A DNA stretch of 49,379 bases, taken from NCBI GenBank assembly GCA_002699185.1, contig PABG01000041.1, forward strand, positions 1 through 49,379, written 5' to 3'. The notes below the pieces were generated by a model that ran no database searches, was not told the DNA's origin, and saw only the letters and a list, made by a program, of their open reading frames with translations. The DNA comes from Gammaproteobacteria bacterium. Its GTDB lineage: Bacteria; Pseudomonadota; Gammaproteobacteria; Thiohalobacterales; Thiohalobacteraceae. Position numbers and translations under genes: made by a program. Numbering within the stretch: position 1 is the first letter of the stretch; every line of letters begins with the position of its first letter. Of this stretch, positions 11,331 through 48,661 are shown in pieces.

Positions 11331-11380
11331 GAAGTCCCCCGCTCGGTTATTGCTGTTGATTTGGAAACCTCTGATTTATT

Positions 11381-11476
11381 CGTCATTGCGAGGCGCGTAG
11401 CGCCGTGGCAATCTCCAACCGGTTAATTCTGCTACACGCGTTTACCTCGCTTTGTATATGGGTACTCGCAATGACG
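11381..11476. repeat. Family A palindromic doublet, copy A1 (right arm diverged)
   Basis: cgtcattgcgaggcgcgtagcgccgtggcaatctcc ... actcgcaatgacg. Confidence 0.8.
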
Positions 11477-11550
11477 AGACCAAATGAATTAATCAGAGGT
11501 TGCTTGGGATAAAGGACACTCCCGGGCCGGACGGGTTCCTGAATCCCGCC

Positions 11551-18715: not shown

Positions 18716-19977
18716 CACCGGCGGTAATCATCGCACTGGTGCTGCTCGCAGCCCTGGGACTGCCGCTGTTCGTGGTGCTCGGGGCCGGCGGTCTCTATGC
18801 CACCCACCGGATGGAACTGGATCCGGTGGTGCTGATCGTGGAATTGAACCGCCTGGCCAGCTCACCCAACCTCACCGCCATCCCCATGTTCACCTTCGCC
18901 GGCGTGGCGCTGGCCGCCGGCGGCGCGCCGCAGCGTCTGATCCGGCTGTTCAACGCCCTGTTCGGCTGGCTGCCCGGCGGCCTGGCGGCGGTCGCGCTCA
19001 CCGCCTGCGCCTTTTTCACCGCCTTCTCCGGCGCCTCAGGCGTGACCATCCTGGCGCTGGGCGGGCTGCTCTATCCCATGCTCAGCTGCCAGGGCTACCG
19101 CGAGCGCTTCTGTCTGGGACTGCTGACCTCCTCCGGCTCGCTGGGCCTGCTGTTTCCACCGAGCCTCGCCATCCTGCTCTACGGCATCGTCGCCGGGGTG
19201 AACATCGACGAGTTGTTCCTGGCCGGCATCGTGCCGGGCACCCTGCTGCTGGTAATGCTGCTGCTCTACAGCATGTTCATGGGCTGCAAGTGCACCGTGC
19301 CGCGCCAGGCCTTTTCGGTACCGGAGCTGGCGCGCGCCGTGCGCGCCGGCGTCTGGGACATCCTGCTGCCGGTGGGCATCGTGGTGGGTATCTTCGGCGG
19401 CTATGTCACGGTCAACGAGGCCGCCGCCTGCACCGCCGCCTATGTGCTGCTGCTGGAATGCCTCATCTTCCGCAACATCAATCTGCCGCATCAGCTGCCG
19501 CTGCTGCTGCGCGACACCAGCCTGCTGGTGGGAAGCATCCTGATCATCCTGGCCGCGGCCATGGGCCTGACCAACCTGCTCATCGACGCCCAGGTGCCGA
19601 TGCAGCTGCTGGCCTGGGTGAAGACGCATGTGGATTCGCCGCTGGAGTTCCTGCTGCTGCTGAACCTGTTCCTGCTGATCGTGGGCGCGATGATGGACAT
19701 CTTCTCGGCCATCGTGGTCATCACGCCGTTGCTGCTGCCGCTGGCGGCCCAGTTCGGCATCCATCCGGTGCACCTGGGCATCATCATGCTGGCCAACCTG
19801 GAGATCGGCTACAGCACCCCGCCGGTGGGCATCAACCTGTTCATCGCCAGCCAGCGCTTCGGCAAGCCGATCCTGCTGCTGTTCCGCGCCGCCCTGCCCT
19901 TTCTGGCCATCATGCTGGTGTGGCTGCTGATCGTCACCTATAACCCGGGGCTGTCGCTGTGGTGGCAGGAAGGGTGA
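18712..19977 (+). CDS. dctM: TRAP transporter large permease (DctM family)
   Basis: GTG start at 18712 overlapping dctQ stop; GVTILALGGLLYPML...SSGSLGLLFPPSLAILLYGIVAGVNIDELFLAGIVPG. Confidence 0.93.
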   Translation: MTPAVIIALVLLAALGLPLFVVLGAGGLYATHRMELDPVVLIVELNRLASSPNLTAIPMFTFAGVALAAGGAPQRLIRLFNALFGWLPGGLAAVALTACAFFTAFSGASGVTILALGGLLYPMLSCQGYRERFCLGLLTSSGSLGLLFPPSLAILLYGIVAGVNIDELFLAGIVPGTLLLVMLLLYSMFMGCKCTVPRQAFSVPELARAVRAGVWDILLPVGIVVGIFGGYVTVNEAAACTAAYVLLLECLIFRNINLPHQLPLLLRDTSLLVGSILIILAAAMGLTNLLIDAQVPMQLLAWVKTHVDSPLEFLLLLNLFLLIVGAMMDIFSAIVVITPLLLPLAAQFGIHPVHLGIIMLANLEIGYSTPPVGINLFIASQRFGKPILLLFRAALPFLAIMLVWLLIVTYNPGLSLWWQEG

Positions 19978-20583: not shown

Positions 20584-20604
20584 ACCTTGGAGCTCGGCGC
20601 TGTA

Positions 20605-20878
20605 AACACAGAGGGCGCAGAGGCGCGGAGACGCTGAGAAACATAACAAGGATTGCGTGGCTGGAATTTCATGCGAAAGCCCGGGCCTGCGCCGACACAG
20701 GCTGCGGCCGCAATCCAGAGACCGCCGCGGCATCTGGATCCCGGCTTTCGCCGGGATGACGGCCTTCGGACACGGGCCTGCCGGCTGGACTGGTTGACCT
20801 GCTTTCCCCGAAACAGTGCGATGAACCTGATCAAACCCGGATTCCTTTGCGTCTCCGCGCCTCTGCGCCCTCTGCGTT
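20605..20878. repeat. Family F inverted repeat with nested family G fragment
   Basis: aacacagagggcgcagaggcgcggagacgc ... gcgtctccgcgcctctgcgccctctgcgtt; inner tggatcccggctttcgccgggatgacgg. Confidence 0.85.
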
Positions 20879-20900
20879 GATCTCACCCAGGCCCAGACAT

Positions 20901-22363: not shown

Positions 22364-23112
22364 GCGAGGAGCGGGACAGCCTGTTCGCCGGCGAACACTC
22401 CATGATCGTCGACTTCGCCTTCGACGAGCGCGTGGCCGCCGTCTTCCCCGACATGATCCGCCGCTCGGTGCCGGGCTACAGCGAGATCGTCACCCTGACC
22501 GGGCTGTTCGGGCAGCGCTACGCCACGCCCGGCTCCAGCATCTACGATCTCGGCTGCTCCCTGGGGGCCACCACCCTGGCCCTGCGCCGGCAGATCCCGC
22601 ATGCCGACTGCCGCATCATCAGCGTGGACAACGCCGAGGCCATGACCGCACAGTGCCGCGAGCATGTGGAGGCCGATCCCGGCACGATCCCGGTGGAGGT
22701 GCGCTGCGCCGACATCCGCGAGGTCCCGATCGAGGACGCCTCACTGGTGGTGTTGAATTTCACCCTGCAGTTCCTGCCGCCGGACGAGCGCCTGCCGCTG
22801 CTGGAGCGCATTCACGCCGGACTGCGCGACGATGGCGTGCTGGTGGTGTCGGAGAAGCTCGACTTCGCCAACGATCTCAGCCAGACCTTTCACACCGACC
22901 TGCACCTGGCCTTCAAGCGCGCCAACGGCTACTCGGACCTGGAGATCAGCCGCAAGCGCAGCGCGCTGGAGCGGGTACTGGTCCCCGACACCCTGGAACA
23001 GCACCGCGAACGGCTGCAGTGGGCGGGCTTTCGCTGGATCGAGCCCTGGTTCCAGTGCTTCAATTTCGCTTCGCTGGTGGCCTTCAAGCGGCGGCCGGAT
23101 CTGCCTGAATGA
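22360..23112 (+). CDS. cmoA: carboxy-S-adenosyl-L-methionine synthase
   Basis: DFAFDERVAAVFPDMIRRSVPGYSEIVTLTGLFGQRYATPGSSIYDLGCSLGATTLALR; ATGA overlap with ycgN. Confidence 0.95.
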   Translation: MSEERDSLFAGEHSMIVDFAFDERVAAVFPDMIRRSVPGYSEIVTLTGLFGQRYATPGSSIYDLGCSLGATTLALRRQIPHADCRIISVDNAEAMTAQCREHVEADPGTIPVEVRCADIREVPIEDASLVVLNFTLQFLPPDERLPLLERIHAGLRDDGVLVVSEKLDFANDLSQTFHTDLHLAFKRANGYSDLEISRKRSALERVLVPDTLEQHRERLQWAGFRWIEPWFQCFNFASLVAFKRRPDLPE

Positions 23113-23116
23113 ATCA

Positions 23117-23312
23117 ATGGCCACGGAAAACACGGAAAGCACGGACATTTCATTATTGTGCCCCTCTCCCCTTCGGGGGAGAGGGGTTGGGGTGAGGGGC
23201 CAAGGTGAAATCGCATTGCCTGTTTTCATCTACCCCCTCTCCCTGGCCCTCTCCCCCGAAGGGGGAGAGGGGAAAATAAAATGTCCGTGCTTTCCGTGTT
23301 TTCCGTGGCCAT
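23117..23312. repeat. Family E inverted repeat (perfect 34-bp arms) with nested family D purine/pyrimidine repeat pair
   Basis: atggccacggaaaacacggaaagcacggacattt at 23117-23150 and its reverse complement at 23279-23312; inner cccctctccccttcgggggagagggg (23161-) and ccctctcccccgaagggggagagggg (to 23272). Confidence 0.9.
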
Positions 23313-24303
23313 GAATTCAAAACCCTTCACCCTCGACCTCACCCCCCTGAACACCGCCCTGCAGGACACCCCACTGGCCGCCTGGGCCGAAGCCCTGCCG
23401 GTCACGCTGGCAGCGAAGCTGGACCCCGACAGCCACGGCGACCTGCCGGCCTGGCAGGCCGCACTCGCCGCCCTGCCCGACATCCGCGCCCGGGATGTCG
23501 ATCTGAACGCCCCCACCATCCGCATCGGCGCGGCGGACGAAATCGACGCCGCTACCCGGGATCGCATCGAGACTGCACTGCGCCAACTGCATCCCTGGCG
23601 CAAGGGGCCGTTCGACATCTTCGGCATTCATATCGACACCGAATGGCGCTCGGACTGGAAGTGGGACCGCATCGCGCCGCATCTCGCGCCGCTGGCGGGA
23701 CGGCGGGTCCTGGACGTGGGCAGCGGCAACGGCTACTTCGCCCTGCGCATGGCCGGGGCGGGTGCCGCCCTGGTGGTGGCCATCGATCCCATGCGCCTGT
23801 TCCTGATGCAGTTCGAGGCGCTGCGCCGGTTCCACGATACGGGCCGGGCCTGCGTGCTGCCGCTCGGCATCGAGGACTTCCCCGAGCGCAGTGAATGTTT
23901 CGATACGGTCTTCTCCATGGGCGTGCTCTATCATCGCCGCTCGCCGCTGGATCACCTGATCCAGCTGCGCGAGGCCCTGCGCCCCGGCGGCGAACTGGTG
24001 CTGGAGACCCTGGTCATCCCCGGCAATGCCGGGCGGGTGCTGGTCCCGGACGGGCGCTATGCGCGCATGCGCAATGTCTGGTTCATCCCCACGGTGGCGG
24101 AACTGGAGCGCTGGCTGGCCCGCTGCGGCCTGCGCGACATCCGCTGCGTCGACGAGGGGCCCACCACACCGGAGGAGCAGCGCAGCACCGACTGGATGCG
24201 CTTCGAGTCGCTGGCCCAGTCCCTGGACCCGGCCGACCCGACCCGCACCGTCGAGGGCCACCCCGCCCCGCGCCGGGCGGTGCTCCTCGCCCGGCGCGGG
24301 TGA
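23281..24303 (+). CDS. cmoB: tRNA U34 carboxymethyltransferase (start 23281 or 23311)
   Basis: WRKGPFDIFGIHIDTEWRSDWKWDRIAPHLAPLAGRRVLDVGSGNGYFALRM; start ambiguity because the 5' end lies in a repeat. Confidence 0.94.
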   Translation: MSVLSVFSVAMNSKPFTLDLTPLNTALQDTPLAAWAEALPVTLAAKLDPDSHGDLPAWQAALAALPDIRARDVDLNAPTIRIGAADEIDAATRDRIETALRQLHPWRKGPFDIFGIHIDTEWRSDWKWDRIAPHLAPLAGRRVLDVGSGNGYFALRMAGAGAALVVAIDPMRLFLMQFEALRRFHDTGRACVLPLGIEDFPERSECFDTVFSMGVLYHRRSPLDHLIQLREALRPGGELVLETLVIPGNAGRVLVPDGRYARMRNVWFIPTVAELERWLARCGLRDIRCVDEGPTTPEEQRSTDWMRFESLAQSLDPADPTRTVEGHPAPRRAVLLARRG

Positions 24304-24316
24304 CGTAGTGAAAATA

Positions 24317-24439
24317 GCCACGGAAAACACGGAAAGCACGGACATTTGATGATCATTGCCCGGCGCATCGCGCCAAGGCAATGGAATGATATTTTTGGCA
24401 TTTGATTTTTTCCGTGCTTTCCGTGTTTTCCGTGGCCAT
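24317..24439. repeat. Family E inverted repeat, second copy, with a different inner hairpin
   Basis: gccacggaaaacacggaaagcacggacattt ... tccgtgctttccgtgttttccgtggccat. Confidence 0.9.
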
Positions 24440-24494
24440 ATTTTGATGCCGCCACCATGACCCACGCCCGCGTTTGTGGGACAATTCGCCCCGC

Positions 24495-27400
24495 ATGAAC
24501 CGGAACACCGCCCCGGCGCCGGCGCCGGACAAACCGTTCGACCCCCGTCATCCGCCCCTGCCGGAGGCCGGCGCGTGCCTGCGCTGGAGCCGGCTGTTCG
24601 GCGACAGCCTGGCGCTGGCGGTGACCGCCGCCGCCCGGGAGTACGCCGGGCCGGTCGTGCTGGTCACCCCGGACATGCCGCAACTCGAGCAGCTGCAGGC
24701 GCAGCTGACCTGGTTCAGTGACGGCGCGCTGGAACTGCTCAGCTTCCCGGACTGGGAGACCCTGCCCTACGACGCCTTCTCCCCACACCAGGACATCATC
24801 TCCCAGCGCATCGAGACCCTGTACCGGCTGCCGGAGTTCCGCCGGGGCGTGCTGATCCTGCCGGTCTCCACCCTGATGCAGCGGGTCGCGCCGCTGAGCT
24901 ACATCCAGGGCCGCGGCCTGTCGGTGAAGGTCGGCGAACGGCTGGACGTCGATGCCATGCGCAGCCGCTTCGAACAGGCCGGCTACACCTGCGTGGCCCA
25001 GGTCATGGAACACGGCGAGTTCGCGGTGCGCGGCTCGCTGCTGGACATCTACCCCATGGGCAGCGAGCTGCCCTACCGGCTGGATCTGTTCGACGACGAG
25101 GTCGAGAGCATCCGCACCTTCGACCCGGACAGCCAGCGCTCCATCGAGAAGGTCGAGTCCATCCATCTGCTGCCGGCGCGCGAGTTCCCCTTCGACCCCG
25201 ACGCCATCAGCCGCTTCCGTCAGGCCTGGCGGGCGCGCTTCGAGGGCGATCCGCAGCGCAGTGCCGTCTACCGCGACGTCAGCCAGGGCATCAGCCCCAA
25301 CGGCATCGAGTACTATCTGCCGCTGTTCTTCGAGCAGACTGCCAGCCTGCCGGACTACCTGCCTGACGACTGCCTGTTCCTGCAGCTGCCCGGCTGCGAC
25401 GCCGCCGCGCAGGACTTCTGGCAGCAACTCGAGGCCCGGCACGACCAGTACCGCCACGACCTCGAACGCCCGGTGCTGGAGCCGGACCAACTCTATCTGG
25501 GGCTGGATGAGCTCGAGCGGCACCTGGCCGCCAGCCGCCGGGTGGAGGTCCTGCGTTTCGACGAAGGCGAAACGCAGGCGGTCAACTTCGCCACCTGCGG
25601 CCTGCCCGATGTCTCGCTCAAGCCGCGCGCGGCGCAGCCGGCCGAACAGCTCACGCGTTTTCTCGATCAGCATCCGGGCCGGGTGCTGATCACCGCCGAG
25701 TCCGCCGGCCGCCGCGAGCATCTGCTCGACAGCCTGCGCGACAACGGCCTGCGCCCGCAGGCGGTCGAGGGCTGGCAGGCCTTTCTCGACGGCGACATCG
25801 AACTGGGCATCGGCGTGGCCCCGCTGGAACAGGGCCTGCGACTGGAGGACGGCGCGCTCGCCCTGCTCACCGAGACCCAGCTGCTGGGCCGGCGTGCCAG
25901 CCAGGTCAGCCGGCGCAAGCCGGCGCGCGACCCCGAGGCCATCATCCGGGATCTTACCGATCTGGCCATCGGCGCCCCGGTGGTGCATGAGGAGTTGGGC
26001 GTGGGCCGCTACCTCGGCCTGCAGAAGCTCACCGCCGGCGGCCTGGAAAACGAATTCCTCACCCTGGAGTACGCCGGCGGCGACAAGCTCTATGTGCCGG
26101 TCAACTCGCTGCACCTGATCAGCCGCTACACCGGCAGCTCGCCCGAGGCCGCCCCCCTGCACAAGCTGGGTACCGACCAGTGGGCGAAGGCCAGGCGCAA
26201 GGCCGCCGAGAAGGCCCGCGACGTGGCCGCCGAACTGCTCGACATCTATGCCCGCCGCGCCGCCCGCCAGGGCCACAGTTTCGACATTCACAGCGACGAG
26301 TACCGCCAGTTCGCCGCCGCCTTCCCGTTCGAGGAGACCCCGGACCAGGAGCAGGCCATCGAGGCGGTGCTGGCCGACATGGCCGCACCGCAGCCGATGG
26401 ACCGGGTGGTGTGCGGCGACGTCGGCTTCGGCAAGACCGAGGTCGCCATGCGCGCCGCCTTCGTCGCCGCCACCAGCGGCCGGCAGGTCGCCCTGCTGGT
26501 GCCCACCACCCTGCTGGCGCAGCAGCACTACGAGAACTTCCGCGACCGCATGGCCGACTGGCCCATCCGCATCGAGGCGCTGTCGCGCTTCCGCTCCGGC
26601 AAGCAGCAGGAGGCGATCCTGCAGCAACTCAGTGACGGCAAGGTCGATATCGTCATCGGCACCCACAAGCTGCTGCAGGAGAATGTGAAGTTCAAGCAAC
26701 TCGGGCTGGTGATCGTGGACGAGGAACACCGTTTCGGCGTGCGCCAGAAGGAACGCCTCAAGGCGCTGCGCGCCGAGGTGGACATGCTGACCCTGACCGC
26801 CACACCGATCCCGCGCACCCTGAACATGTCCCTGGCGGGACTGCGCGATCTGTCCATCATCGCCACTCCACCGGCCCAGCGCCTGGCGGTGAAGACCTTC
26901 GTCGGCGAGTGGAACGGCCAGACCATCCGCGAGGCCTGCCTGCGCGAGATCAAGCGCGGCGGCCAGGTCTACTTCCTGCACAACCAGGTGGAGACCATCG
27001 ACAAGGTCGCGCGCGAACTGGCCGAACTGGTGCCCGAGGCCGGCATCGCCATCGGCCACGGCCAGATGCGCGAGCGCGACCTGGAACAGGTGATGCTGGA
27101 TTTCTACCACCGGCGCTTCAATCTGCTGGTGTGCACCACCATCATCGAGAGCGGCATCGACATACCCACCGCCAACACCATCATCATCAACCGCGCCGAC
27201 AAGCTCGGCCTGGCCCAGCTGCACCAGCTGCGCGGCCGGGTCGGGCGCTCGCACCATCGCGCCTACGCCTACCTGGTCACGCCGCCGGCACGGGCCATGA
27301 CCGCCGACGCGGTCAAACGCCTGGAGGCCATCGCCTCGCTGGAGGAACTGGGCGCGGGCTTCTCACTTTCCACCCACGACCTGGAGATCCGCGGCGCCGG

Positions 27401-27977
27401 CGAACTGTTGGGCGACGAGCAGAGCGGGCAGATCCAGGAGATCGGCTTCAGCCTCTACACCGAACTGCTGGAGCGCGCCGTGGCAAGCCTCAAGGCCGGG
27501 AAGGAACCGCAGCTGGAACGGCCGCTGGAGCATGGGGCGGAGATCGACCTGCGCATCCCCGCCCTGATCCCGGACGACTATGTCCCCGACGTGCATGGCC
27601 GCCTGATCCTGTACAAGCGCATCGCCAACTGCCGCACGGAAGACGAACTGCGCGAGCTGCAGGTGGAGCTGATCGACCGCTTCGGCCTGCTGCCGCCGCA
27701 GGTGAAGAACCTGTTCGCCATCACCCGGCTCAAGCTCAGGGCCCTGCCGCTGGGCATCCGCAAGATCGACGCCGGCGAGACCGCCGGCCGCTTCGAGTTC
27801 ACTGAACAGCCGCAGGTCGATGCCGCGCGCATCGTGCAGCTGGTGCAGACCGCACCTGAGAACTACCGCCTGGACGGGGTGGAGAAGCTGCGATTCAATC
27901 TGGACATGCCCGATGCCGAGACCCGGCTGGAGACCGTGGCCCGGCTGCTGGACGAGATCAGCCCCGAGGCCGCCTGA
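24495..27977 (+). CDS. mfd: transcription-repair coupling factor
   Basis: 1160-aa UvrB-homology + CarD-RID + helicase (VCGDVGFGKTEVAMRAAF, DEEHRFGV, LTATPIPRTL). Confidence 0.97.
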   Translation: MNRNTAPAPAPDKPFDPRHPPLPEAGACLRWSRLFGDSLALAVTAAAREYAGPVVLVTPDMPQLEQLQAQLTWFSDGALELLSFPDWETLPYDAFSPHQDIISQRIETLYRLPEFRRGVLILPVSTLMQRVAPLSYIQGRGLSVKVGERLDVDAMRSRFEQAGYTCVAQVMEHGEFAVRGSLLDIYPMGSELPYRLDLFDDEVESIRTFDPDSQRSIEKVESIHLLPAREFPFDPDAISRFRQAWRARFEGDPQRSAVYRDVSQGISPNGIEYYLPLFFEQTASLPDYLPDDCLFLQLPGCDAAAQDFWQQLEARHDQYRHDLERPVLEPDQLYLGLDELERHLAASRRVEVLRFDEGETQAVNFATCGLPDVSLKPRAAQPAEQLTRFLDQHPGRVLITAESAGRREHLLDSLRDNGLRPQAVEGWQAFLDGDIELGIGVAPLEQGLRLEDGALALLTETQLLGRRASQVSRRKPARDPEAIIRDLTDLAIGAPVVHEELGVGRYLGLQKLTAGGLENEFLTLEYAGGDKLYVPVNSLHLISRYTGSSPEAAPLHKLGTDQWAKARRKAAEKARDVAAELLDIYARRAARQGHSFDIHSDEYRQFAAAFPFEETPDQEQAIEAVLADMAAPQPMDRVVCGDVGFGKTEVAMRAAFVAATSGRQVALLVPTTLLAQQHYENFRDRMADWPIRIEALSRFRSGKQQEAILQQLSDGKVDIVIGTHKLLQENVKFKQLGLVIVDEEHRFGVRQKERLKALRAEVDMLTLTATPIPRTLNMSLAGLRDLSIIATPPAQRLAVKTFVGEWNGQTIREACLREIKRGGQVYFLHNQVETIDKVARELAELVPEAGIAIGHGQMRERDLEQVMLDFYHRRFNLLVCTTIIESGIDIPTANTIIINRADKLGLAQLHQLRGRVGRSHHRAYAYLVTPPARAMTADAVKRLEAIASLEELGAGFSLSTHDLEIRGAGELLGDEQSGQIQEIGFSLYTELLERAVASLKAGKEPQLERPLEHGAEIDLRIPALIPDDYVPDVHGRLILYKRIANCRTEDELRELQVELIDRFGLLPPQVKNLFAITRLKLRALPLGIRKIDAGETAGRFEFTEQPQVDAARIVQLVQTAPENYRLDGVEKLRFNLDMPDAETRLETVARLLDEISPEAA

Positions 27978-28004
27978 AAAAGGCCAACTGAATCCTGATA
28001 GTCC

Positions 28005-28090
28005 CGTCATTGCGAGCGAAGCGCGGCAATCTCGTAACGCATCAGCAAACAGTTTAGGATTGCCGCGGCGCTCCGCGCCTCGCAATGACG
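28005..28090. repeat. Family A doublet, copy A2
   Basis: cgtcattgcgagcgaagcgcggcaatctcg ... attgccgcggcgctccgcgcctcgcaatgacg. Confidence 0.88.
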
Positions 28091-28110
28091 AGTAAACCAG
28101 AGGCTTATTT

Positions 28111-28860
28111 ATGTTACTGCATCGCCTGCTCCTGGCCGCACTTGCCCTGCTGATGACCGCTGCCGCACCGGCCGCCGACCAGTACGACGTGGAAATCATC
28201 GTCTATGCCAGCCTGGAGCCGGACACCGGCGAGGAATACTGGCCGGCACTGGAATCCGGCCCCGACCTCGCCTCGGCCTGGTACTTCGACCACACCCCGG
28301 CGCTGCAGCCGCTGCCGCGCAAGGCCTACCGGCTCGACGCCATCGCCGGCGCCCTGGCACGCTCCAGACAGTATCGTCCCCTGCTCCACTTCGCCTGGCG
28401 TCAGCCGGGCTGGGAGCGCGATGCCGCCCTGCCGGTGCGCGTCAACATCCCCATCGGTGCCAACCTGCCGGTGTACCCGGAAAGCCATCCCCTGCGCGCA
28501 CCCGGCACCGTCACAGCGCCTTCCGGCCTGTCACCCGAATCCGCCCTCAGAGGAGAAATGCAGCTGCTGGAAGGCACGCTCATGGTCTACCGCTCACGCT
28601 ACCTGCACCTGGTGGCGGATCTGGTCTATCAGGAACGCCTGGGACCGTCAGCGGACAGCAGCCCGTACGCAGAGGACGGCGGCGTCGTCTACCAGCCGAT
28701 CCGGATGCAGCAGTCGCGCCGCATGCGCAGCAACGAACTGCACTACCTGGATCATCCACGGCTGGGGGTGATCGCACGGATCACACCGGTTGAGGCAGCG
28801 GAACCATCAGAAAATGCAGCAAATACCGCAGAACCCCCGGACGCCTCCCCTACAGAGTAG
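28111..28860 (+). CDS. CsiV-like periplasmic protein downstream of mfd
   Basis: Signal peptide; YDVEIIVYASLEPDTGEEYWP...; gene order mfd-csiV. Confidence 0.7.
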   Translation: MLLHRLLLAALALLMTAAAPAADQYDVEIIVYASLEPDTGEEYWPALESGPDLASAWYFDHTPALQPLPRKAYRLDAIAGALARSRQYRPLLHFAWRQPGWERDAALPVRVNIPIGANLPVYPESHPLRAPGTVTAPSGLSPESALRGEMQLLEGTLMVYRSRYLHLVADLVYQERLGPSADSSPYAEDGGVVYQPIRMQQSRRMRSNELHYLDHPRLGVIARITPVEAAEPSENAANTAEPPDASPTE

Positions 28861-28893: not shown

Positions 28894-29297
28894 CGTCATT
28901 GCGAGGAGCGCAGCGACGTGGCAATCTCCTTCAGAAAAAAACTTCCTCAAAAAGATCCCGCCATTGCGGGTTTTCATTTTCAATCAACGCAACCTTCGCT
29001 TTTCTCAGCCTGGCCTTTAATTGCTTCTCTCTTTCAATGGCCAGGTCCATCGTTTGAAAAACTCAAAGCAGACCAGTCGCGTCACATTGTATTTTGCAGT
29101 AAATCCTTTGACTGCTTTGTTTTTGTGTTCCCATATGCGTTTTGACAGATTACTGGTGACGCCAATATACAGCGTGCCATTCGGCCGGTTGCACAGGATA
29201 TAAACAGCGGGTTGTTTTCCATTTCGCCATCCTTGACGATGATTGTTCAGCTGCACCTTTGGGAGATTGCCACGTCGCTGCGCTCCTCGCAATGACG
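28894..29297. mobile_element. 404-bp unit: perfect 36-bp terminal inverted repeats bracketing the GIY-YIG gene (repeat family A, copy A3)
   Basis: CGTCATTGCGAGGAGCGCAGCGACGTGGCAATCTCC at 28894-28929; exact reverse complement at 29262-29297. Confidence 0.75.
28931..29230 (-). pseudogene. GIY-YIG nuclease family gene, frameshifted
   Basis: VYILCNRPNGTLYIGVTSNLSKRIWEHKNKAVKGFTAKYNVTRLVCFEFF in ORF 29017..29292; remainder (MDLAIEREKQLKARLRKAKVALIENENPQWRDLFEEVFF*) in another frame; shift near 29053-29055; possible second shift near 29215-29218 hiding an MAKWK start. Confidence 0.85.
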
Positions 29298-31430: not shown

Positions 31431-31500
31431 GGGGGCAGTCTCCTTAACTTTATGACATCGTCATTCCCGCGAAGGCGGGAATCCAGAATATCGCGAGCAT

Positions 31501-31643
31501 GTCGGGTTACGCTGCGCTAACCCGACCTACATGCTTTAAGACGTCGTCATTCCCGCATCCAGCACGTAGGTTGGGTTAGGTGCGCAGCGCCGTAACCCAA
31601 CATGCCGCGGACTGTCGGGTTACGCTACGCTAACCCGACCTAC
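31501..31643. repeat. Family B: half copy (31501-31530) plus doublet B2 (31566-31643), interspersed with family G fragments
   Basis: gtcgggttacgctgcgctaacccgacctac; gtaggttgggttaggtgcgcagcgccgtaacccaac ... gtcgggttacgctacgctaacccgacctac. Confidence 0.85.
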
Positions 31644-31658
31644 ATGATAGACAATCCA

Positions 31659-32981: not shown

Positions 32982-33021
32982 TGGTCAGCTTTTGATTCCG
33001 GTGCTTCGGGTTGTATCCCGG

Positions 33022-33103
33022 GTAGGATGGGTGGAGGCGCCGGGCGCCGTAACCCATCGGGTATCGAACGACGATGGGTTGCGCTTCGCTTCACCCATCC
33101 TAC
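33022..33103. repeat. Family C doublet, copy C1
   Basis: gtaggatgggtggaggcgccgggcgccgtaacccatc ... gatgggttgcgcttcgcttcacccatcctac. Confidence 0.88.
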
Positions 33104-33111
33104 GGTTTTTA

Positions 33112-36516: not shown

Positions 36517-36595
36517 GTAGGTCGGGTTAGCCCGAAGGGCGTAACCCGACGTTCCCGCCGTGCGTGTCGGGTTACGCTGCGCTAACCCGACCTAC
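36517..36595. repeat. Family B doublet, copy B4, followed by a family C end fragment (36601-36613)
   Basis: gtaggtcgggttagcccgaagggcgtaacccgac ... gtcgggttacgctgcgctaacccgacctac; then tccacccatcctac. Confidence 0.88.
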
Positions 36596-36656
36596 AAGGC
36601 TCCACCCATCCTACGCTTCGAAAGCTTATTTTCCGTATGCTGCAAAGGCCATCATA

Positions 36657-38374: not shown

Positions 38375-38432
38375 GCATATTCTTATGCCTCATGGCACTT
38401 CCGAATAATCCGTCATTGCGATACCCAGACCT

Positions 38433-38513
38433 GTAGGTCGGGTTAGCGCAGCGTAACCCGACACAACCGCGGTATTTTGTCGGGTTACGCCCCGCCGGGC
38501 TAACCCGACCTAC
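38433..38513. repeat. Family B doublet, copy B5, between a family A half site (38411-38420) and family C copy C3
   Basis: gtaggtcgggttagcgcagcgtaacccgac ... gtcgggttacgccccgccgggctaacccgacctac. Confidence 0.88.
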
Positions 38514-41110: not shown

Positions 41111-41288
41111 ACGCAAAGGTCGCAAAGGCGCAGAGAACGCAATTTGTCCGTCATTGCGAGCGCAGCGTGGCAATCTCGTAATGTGGAGGTCTCCGGTGAG
41201 AGATTGCCGCGGCGCTTCGCGCCTCGCAATGACGGAACAATAATAATCCTCGCTTTCTCTGGGTCTCTGCGTCCTCTGCGTTTGCGTC
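41111..41288. repeat. Family F inverted repeat enclosing family A copy A5
   Basis: acgcaaaggtcgcaaaggcgcagagaacgc ... tctctgcgtcctctgcgtttgcgt. Confidence 0.82.
41149..41234. repeat. Family A doublet, copy A5, nested inside family F repeat
   Basis: cgtcattgcgagcgcagcgtggcaatctcg ... gagattgccgcggcgcttcgcgcctcgcaatgacg. Confidence 0.88.
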
Positions 41289-41571: not shown

Positions 41572-41583
41572 TCTACCGTTGCG

Positions 41584-41665
41584 CAGGATGGGTGAAGGCG
41601 CACGGCGCCGTAACCCATCGACTGGCAGGGCGATGATGGGTTGCGCTTCGCTCCACCCATCCTAC
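41584..41665. repeat. Family C doublet, copy C4, between sdhB and sdhE
   Basis: caggatgggtgaaggcgcacggcgccgtaacccatc ... gatgggttgcgcttcgctccacccatcctac. Confidence 0.88.
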
Positions 41666-44876: not shown

Positions 44877-44973
44877 GGATTGCAACTTTTTGGGAAATTT
44901 ATAGCATTGCACCCTGGAAATTGCCATAAGAGTATCATTAAGGGATCTCTGACTTAGAATGGCACTTGGTTAG

Positions 44974-45076
44974 CGTCATTGCGAGCACCCAGAGGGCATA
45001 AACGAAGCGTGGCAATCTCGTACTGCAGAATCAATCGGTTGGAGATTGCCACGTCGCTTCGCTCCTCGCAATGACG
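44974..45076. repeat. Family A doublet, copy A6
   Basis: cgtcattgcgagcacccagagggcataaacgaagcgtggcaatctcg ... ggagattgccacgtcgcttcgctcctcgcaatgacg. Confidence 0.88.
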
Positions 45077-45227
45077 TAATTAACCAGAGGTTCCTTAATC
45101 CGCCACGGTGCGCCAGACTGCGGGATTCATGCCGGATTTCCCTGCATTCCCTGCCTGAGATTGACGGCGACGCGCGGGAAATGATACTCAACGAGGCTGT
45201 CCATCAGGCCGCGGAGCGGATGCGATC

Positions 45228-46292: not shown

Positions 46293-46439
46293 AACGCAGA
46301 GGTCGCAAAGGCGCGGAGGCGCAAAGGAGTATTATCGCCGTGTCGCCTCGCTACGCTCGCGACAAGAACAACCCAAGAGTTGGCACTTTTACAATTATGA
46401 GTAACTCTGCGTCTCCGCGCCTCTGCGGCCTCTGCGTTG
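46293..46439. repeat. Family F inverted repeat
   Basis: aacgcagaggtcgcaaaggcgcggaggcgc ... gcgtctccgcgcctctgcggcctctgcgtt. Confidence 0.87.
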
Positions 46440-48400: not shown

Positions 48401-48570
48401 GAGGCAACCTGTCGTTGTAATTGTAAGCGGCGAAACTTTAACGAAAGTGTTTCGAATATAAGGTATCTATTTATTATTCCTTTAAAAATACCTCTCCTGT
48501 CCCGTATAAGGCCAGATTGCACGGGGGCTGTCAAGTTCTGACGTGAGGCGTTGGACGTGAAATGAACGCG

Positions 48571-48652
48571 TTGGATGGGTGAAGCGCAGCGCAACCCATC
48601 GTGGCGCGGTCAATCGATGGGTTACGGCGTCATACGCCTTCACCCATCCTAC
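48571..48652. repeat. Family C doublet, copy C5
   Basis: ttggatgggtgaagcgcagcgcaacccatc ... gatgggttacggcgtcatacgccttcacccatcctac. Confidence 0.88.
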
Positions 48653-48661
48653 ACAATATTC

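Follow-up and report, generated by a model that had tools for sequence, protein, structure and literature searches.

A probable IS5-type MITE with a REP dimer upstream of csiV, and a putative ribosome-binding site in its terminal repeat

The gap between mfd and csiV in the window, i.e., the whole 49,379-nt stretch of DNA analysed, is filled by a repeat copy, A2, whose right outer arm holds a GAGG close to the csiV start codon. We consider it probable that an IS5-type MITE with a REP dimer inserted at csiV and that the GAGG of its end is now the csiV ribosome-binding site. According to this explanation, A2 would be a 130-bp non-autonomous element composed of a head-to-head pair of CGTC REPs inside IS5-family terminal inverted repeats (TIRs). 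It would have inserted between the two genes in the ancestor of the window's genome (G000) and of its relative G002. The distance from the mfd stop to csiV, formerly a few nucleotides, would thereby have grown to 133 nt, and ribosomes would now dock at the GAGG that is conserved in the right terminal repeat and lies 7 nt ahead of the start. The sequence comparisons show the insertion, the identity of the repeat ends, the spacing, and its recurrence elsewhere, whereas use of the GAGG by ribosomes is inferred. Passive reuse of the element end is the likely route, because start codons follow such ends at about chance frequency.

The mfd–csiV junction and the anatomy of A2

The window is contig C41 of a 2.9-Mb draft genome that is 79% complete, and it was compared with two syntenic genomes of the same genus, G001 and G002. 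On the forward strand, mfd (transcription-repair coupling factor; Pfam TRCF, CarD_TRCF_RID, MFD_D3, UvrB_inter, and DEAD) extends from 24474 to 27977, with its stop codon TGA at 27975–27977. It is followed on the same strand by csiV (28111–28860), encoding a peptidoglycan-binding protein of the CsiV family (PF10972, 129 bits), whose start codon aligns with those of the G001 and G002 orthologues. In Vibrio cholerae, CsiV is a periplasmic protein required for PBP1A-dependent cell wall synthesis (PMC4063736).

The gap between the two genes is 133 nt in both the window's genome and G002 and is filled by A2, while the site is empty in G001 (GCCGCCTGAGGAAAACCATG), where 8 nt separate the genes and a GAGG formed by the mfd stop (TGAGGAAAACCATG) lies 6 nt from the ATG (TGAGG-N6-ATG). 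Comparison of csiV gives 82% for G001 versus 89% for G002, which makes G001 the more distant relative, so that the insertion most likely occurred on the branch common to G000 and G002. Because A2 widened the gap, the old GAGG site is now far from csiV. Most other genomes with a readable junction have their closest in-frame csiV start at −4 to +8 nt, often in ATGA overlaps; the exceptions were G006 (+55), G024 (+16), and G029, which has a long gap and no certain start. The first-pass annotation had regarded the motif in repeat-free csiV leaders as evidence against its proposal; this AGAGG is absent from the leaders of G001 and of other members of the family, which are closely coupled to mfd.

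A2 as a whole (27978–28107) is a composite of 27, 86, and 17 bp, and its 130-bp length is matched by the complete copies C55:14409-14538 and C82:2-131 and by one in a fetched G002 segment (19083-19212), which has CTGA on both sides. The left outer arm (27978–28004) is strongly diverged, with 6 of 17 positions agreeing with the TIR consensus at both offsets (17 and 27); besides the G002 orthologue, its best match among all arms is the left arm of C55:2465, another degenerate 130-bp copy, with 18 of 27 positions in register. The core (28005–28090) is a head-to-head dimer of CGTC-type REP units with the arms CGTCATTGCGAG and CTCGCAATGACG, for which a strong hairpin is predicted, and its right flank reads AGTAAACCAGAGGCTTATTT. 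This flank, the right outer arm (28091–28107, reverse strand), is a diverged IS5-type TIR that agrees with the 17-nt outer consensus at 12 of 17 positions at offset 17, and it shares AAACCAGAGGCT without any change with the L186 TIR, after which CTAG follows. A candidate left target-site copy, CTGA (27974–27977), directly adjoins the 130-bp unit and overlaps the mfd stop, and a candidate right copy, the diverged TTTA (28108–28111), is proposed from its position; the csiV ATG would begin at its final A. With the left repeat barely recognisable, CTGA and TTTA mismatched, and the G001 empty site diverged, the A2 event is a reconstruction and an exact target duplication at A2 is presumed.

Within the right arm, AGAGG occupies 28099–28103 on the forward strand, directly after the A2 core and 7 nt before the csiV start, as originally annotated. 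Its GAGG is the only Shine-Dalgarno (SD) candidate near csiV. It is a purine-rich anti-SD match inside the 5–9 nt range expected of such sites, and the csiV ORF offers just one candidate start in frame, with GAGG at a normal spacing. The anti-SD duplex energy is −5.8 kcal/mol for the A2 end, compared with −6.1 at the native site of G001 and −6.5 for an end of consensus sequence; the site is thus moderate, as 5% of random 20-mers from the window reach −6.9 kcal/mol, a stronger value. When the leader RNA is folded alone, the GAGG is mostly paired, with an unpaired probability of 0.09–0.25 in G000 and 0.01–0.14 in G002. The claim that the motif supplies the csiV SD stands as regards the location of AGAGG in the outer part of A2, while its use by the ribosome is suggested by its position. 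Searches at the locus returned no Rfam family up to E = 1, and neither a promoter nor a terminator was found inside the A2 insertion.

Element ends and repeat family A

The first-pass annotation had suspected that the element extends beyond its REP-like core and had proposed a comparison of flanks to define its ends; these were set by empty sites in a same-genus relative, and the extension proved real. A6 (44942–45094) is a composite MITE with TTAA at 44938–44941 and 45095–45098, and its site is empty in G001, which gives the ends as TTAA, GGGATCTCTG...CAGAGGTTCC, TTAA. In sequence, the window and G002 read ATCATTAA followed by GGGATCTCTGACTTAG...AATTAACCAGAGGTTCC and TTAATCC, versus ATCATTAATCC in G001. 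The element ends four bases past CAGAGG, and TTAA is duplicated. A1 (11364–11503), which is complete and carries an outer repeat on each side, is likewise a composite MITE, and its site is empty in G002. The A1 and A6 empty sites place the outer repeats in inserted DNA, which identifies the outer motif as the element's terminal inverted repeat. For most other copies the empty-site comparison with G002 was uninformative, because several repeat families have remodelled the intergenic DNA of the genus. Inverted copies of CACGGAAAACACGGAAAGCACGGA, a repeat found between genes at many places in the genus, flank genes at window positions 23110–23319 and 24314–24454. The window also contains scattered copies of two more palindromic families, GTCGGGTTACGC...AACCCGACCTAC and GTAGGATGGGT...ACCCATC, at 31494–31644, 36517–36596, 38432–38513, 33019–33104, 41579–41665, and 48570–48656.

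CAGAGG constitutes the inner part of an IS5-family TIR (GGAACCTCTGATTTATT / AATAAATCAGAGGTTCC). Besides the TTAA pair of A6, YTAR duplications in the element family include CTAG on both sides of L189 and TTAA on both sides of C125, and the outer repeat has YTAR neighbours in 19 of 37 relatives. Targets of the CTAG or TTAA type are consistent with IS5-type elements. In G006 and the genome of L177, pairs of the repeat 1.19 kb apart enclose a single transposase gene; the TIRs are common to MITEs and full IS elements in L183, L167, and L177, and the transposase encoded in L183 belongs to the IS5 family (NF033581, 354 bits; DDE_Tnp_1, 111 bits). The 130 bp of A2 are too short to encode a transposase. 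The draft genome of the window itself (79% complete) yielded no intact IS with matching ends; five PF01609 transposase matches there were considered as a source and set aside, having no such ends nearby.

Nearly all genome copies of family A were taken and 45 nt were read outward from each arm. Exact CGTCATTGCGAG arms number 152 in the window's genome, and both arms follow the pattern CGTC-ATTGC...GCAAT with the CGTC ends outward. A AACCTCTGATTTATT-like outer sequence lies beyond approximately 23 of 196 arms (about 12%), either at 17 nt, where it abuts the arm, or at a distance of 27 nt on the opposite side. Arms flanked by a second kind of outer sequence, GAATGGCACTTAnTTAAG, are about equally numerous, and most core copies carry neither. 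Among 312 core arms of three same-genus genomes, the 17-nt outer consensus was matched at 12 or more positions by 22 flanks at offset 17 and 13 at offset 27 and by none at offsets 19–22; the random-sequence rate for such a match is 4.75e-5. As described earlier, A1 has AACCTCTGATTTATT ahead of its left arm in mirrored orientation and AATTAATCAGAGGTTGC past its right arm, and A6 has AATTAACCAGAGGTTCC past its right arm. The motif had been presented as a conserved flank of family A. It does belong to the outer part of the element, as an IS5-type TIR, and recurs in register next to other genomic copies, yet most copies lack it; we therefore rejected it as a universal feature of family A, and it marks a subfamily. 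Enrichment of CAGAGG by itself in the window was likewise rejected (25 found versus 36 expected).

Several other repeats were observed in this context. An unrelated interspersed repeat, CGCAGAGGCGCGGAGACGC, also contains CAGAGG (20588–20895 and 46405–46439), and the interspersed repeat CGCAGAGGCGCGGAGACGCAGAG, located at 20588–20641, 20842–20895, 46405–46439, and 41249–41283 of the window, includes CAGAGG too and can be mistaken for the outer motif. A3 (28894–29297) is an expanded copy, also present in G002, whose two arms are 100% complementary over 36 nt and are separated by 332 nt of other DNA. The GAATGGCACTTAnTTAAG terminal repeat builds elements of about 134 bp, as in C110:4654-4884 (L089), C82:2161-2294 (L067), and G002 263894-264027 and 558893-559026, with interiors made of CGTC REP dimers of two different types; a full-length element matching these ends was not found. 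Given two REP types inside the same ends, the ends and interiors of REP-dimer elements appear to be exchangeable.

Alternative readings of the csiV leader

The chief competing explanation takes GAGG as the ancestral SD of csiV itself, with the repeat inserted just upstream and the likeness to an IS5 end coincidental. It can draw on G001, which also has a GAGG at 6 nt from the ATG with a similar duplex energy, and on the mismatch between CTGA and TTTA at A2. Three observations lead us to judge it unlikely: the flank agrees with the terminal repeat at 12 of 17 positions in exact register, its AAACCAGAGGCT is found again in the genuine terminal repeat of L186, and the 130-bp total fits complete copies. 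Moreover, the G001 GAGG is made by the mfd stop, which stayed to the left of the insertion. An ancestral SD would lead one to expect AGAGGCTTA before csiV in intermediate genomes with an empty site, and AGAGGCTTATTTATG at an empty csiV site free of the repeat would strengthen the case for it. The proposal that only the REP-like core is mobile and that the 20-nt flank is ordinary intergenic DNA agrees with the lack of a recognisable outer repeat in most core copies; it is nevertheless extremely improbable, as the A1 and A6 empty sites put the outer repeats in inserted DNA and at least 39 nt of non-core A2 flank are missing from G001, where the genes are only 8 nt apart.

Translation of csiV could also depend mainly on ribosomes arriving from mfd, or on another start or structure, in which case AGAGG would be incidental and the hairpin core would mainly affect mRNA processing or stability. 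The pairing of GAGG in isolated folds, the strong hairpin predicted between mfd and csiV, and the finding of no terminator-like site that would separate their transcripts are in line with this, while the single in-frame start candidate with its normally spaced GAGG counts against it. Direct re-initiation across 133 nt and a strong hairpin is unlikely, which further weakens this option, and we regard it as quite improbable.

Spacing at other loci and comparison with known systems

The reading we prefer, reuse of a MITE end as the csiV ribosome-binding site, conforms to a simple geometry. GAGG is set back 4 nt from the end of the element, and another 4 nt come from the target copy. A start codon right after the target copy thus has GAGG at 8 nt, and one using the last A of the target copy has it at 7 nt, as at A2. 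The 8-nt arrangement is found in the window's genome at a secretin gene (PF00263), where the element C3:26981-27183 ends in CAGAGGTTCC followed by CCAG and ATG, with GAGG 8 nt ahead of the first ATG. The site in G001 is empty (CACTAGATGG, at CTAG) and its best anti-SD match reaches only −3.3 kcal/mol; the original secretin start may be a second ATG, in frame and 12 nt further on. A scan of 369 genomes from the class gave 610 occurrences (the sum of per-genome counts) of the exact end followed by YTAR, in 77 genomes, and the reversed control gave none. ATG directly followed the target copy in 13 of the 610 (2.1%, versus 1/64 or about 9.5 expected), and the YTAATG form followed the exact end in 18 cases. 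Selection for, or targeting of, start codons was considered and is unsupported, the 13 of 610 being close to chance. In relatives, the exact end, target, and ATG coincide at the starts of rhlB, ftsB, and a CopD-domain gene; the rhlB case is present in two related genomes, with TTAA on both sides at L267. The 7-nt form was found in G220 at a purH-like gene and a TetR gene. In this genome, which has about 97 exact ends, three 162-bp elements (L295, L296, and L297) end exactly at long ORFs in the 7-nt form, namely the purH-like gene, another ORF, and the TetR regulator.

When compared to known systems, the A2 core corresponds to the CGTC REPs of Di Nocera et al. 2013 (PMC3733652) in its CGTC tag followed by AT at stem positions 1–2 of the palindrome, its short tail near CCA, and its head-to-head dimer, the main form described there; family A shares their high copy number and intergenic location. 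No dedicated transposase is reported for CGTC REPs, and movement by various transposases has been suggested (PMC3733652). The same study describes one case, in H. neapolitanus, of dimers within a longer palindrome; here, in contrast, one subset of dimers is enclosed by IS5-type ends with duplicated targets, and a second terminal repeat encloses another subset. With IS5-family IS and MITEs the elements share the terminal repeat GGAACCTCTGATT, 4-bp YTAR target copies, and full-length relatives of about 1.19 kb with an IS5-family transposase, but their interior is a REP dimer instead of a shortened transposase gene. QMITE2 of Coxiella burnetii, in the parts of its descriptions available to us (PMC5896051, PMC10969869), is likewise a MITE containing a REP, and its truncated copies devoid of ends look like plain REPs; it differs in its GTAG-type REP, its 7–11-nt direct repeats, and its location mainly in 3′ UTRs and intergenic regions, and those same parts contain no mention of an SD role. 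GTAG REPs that give a TAG stop to adjacent genes (PMC3733652) offer another case of an element end becoming a neighbour's translation signal, with a stop codon supplied there versus a ribosome-binding site here. Our literature search found no report naming an IS or MITE end as an SD donor, and a 2024 MITE review (PMC10969869) does not contain the words.

A broader interpretation, in which outward GAGG at both IS5-type ends, placed so that it always falls 7–8 nt from a start codon next to the 4-bp target copy, would be a maintained property, the elements would act as mobile ribosome-binding sites that land before genes without silencing them, and CGTC REP dimers would spread as cargo in such ends and in at least one other end type, seems rather doubtful to us. 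For the 2013 question of how CGTC REPs move without a transposase of their own (PMC3733652), the ends described here provide an answer at the sequence level: at least some would travel inside IS5-type ends. The empty sites also show how the end of a mobile element could become the ribosome-binding site of a gene, following a simple geometric rule with several independent cases that are open to reporter tests.
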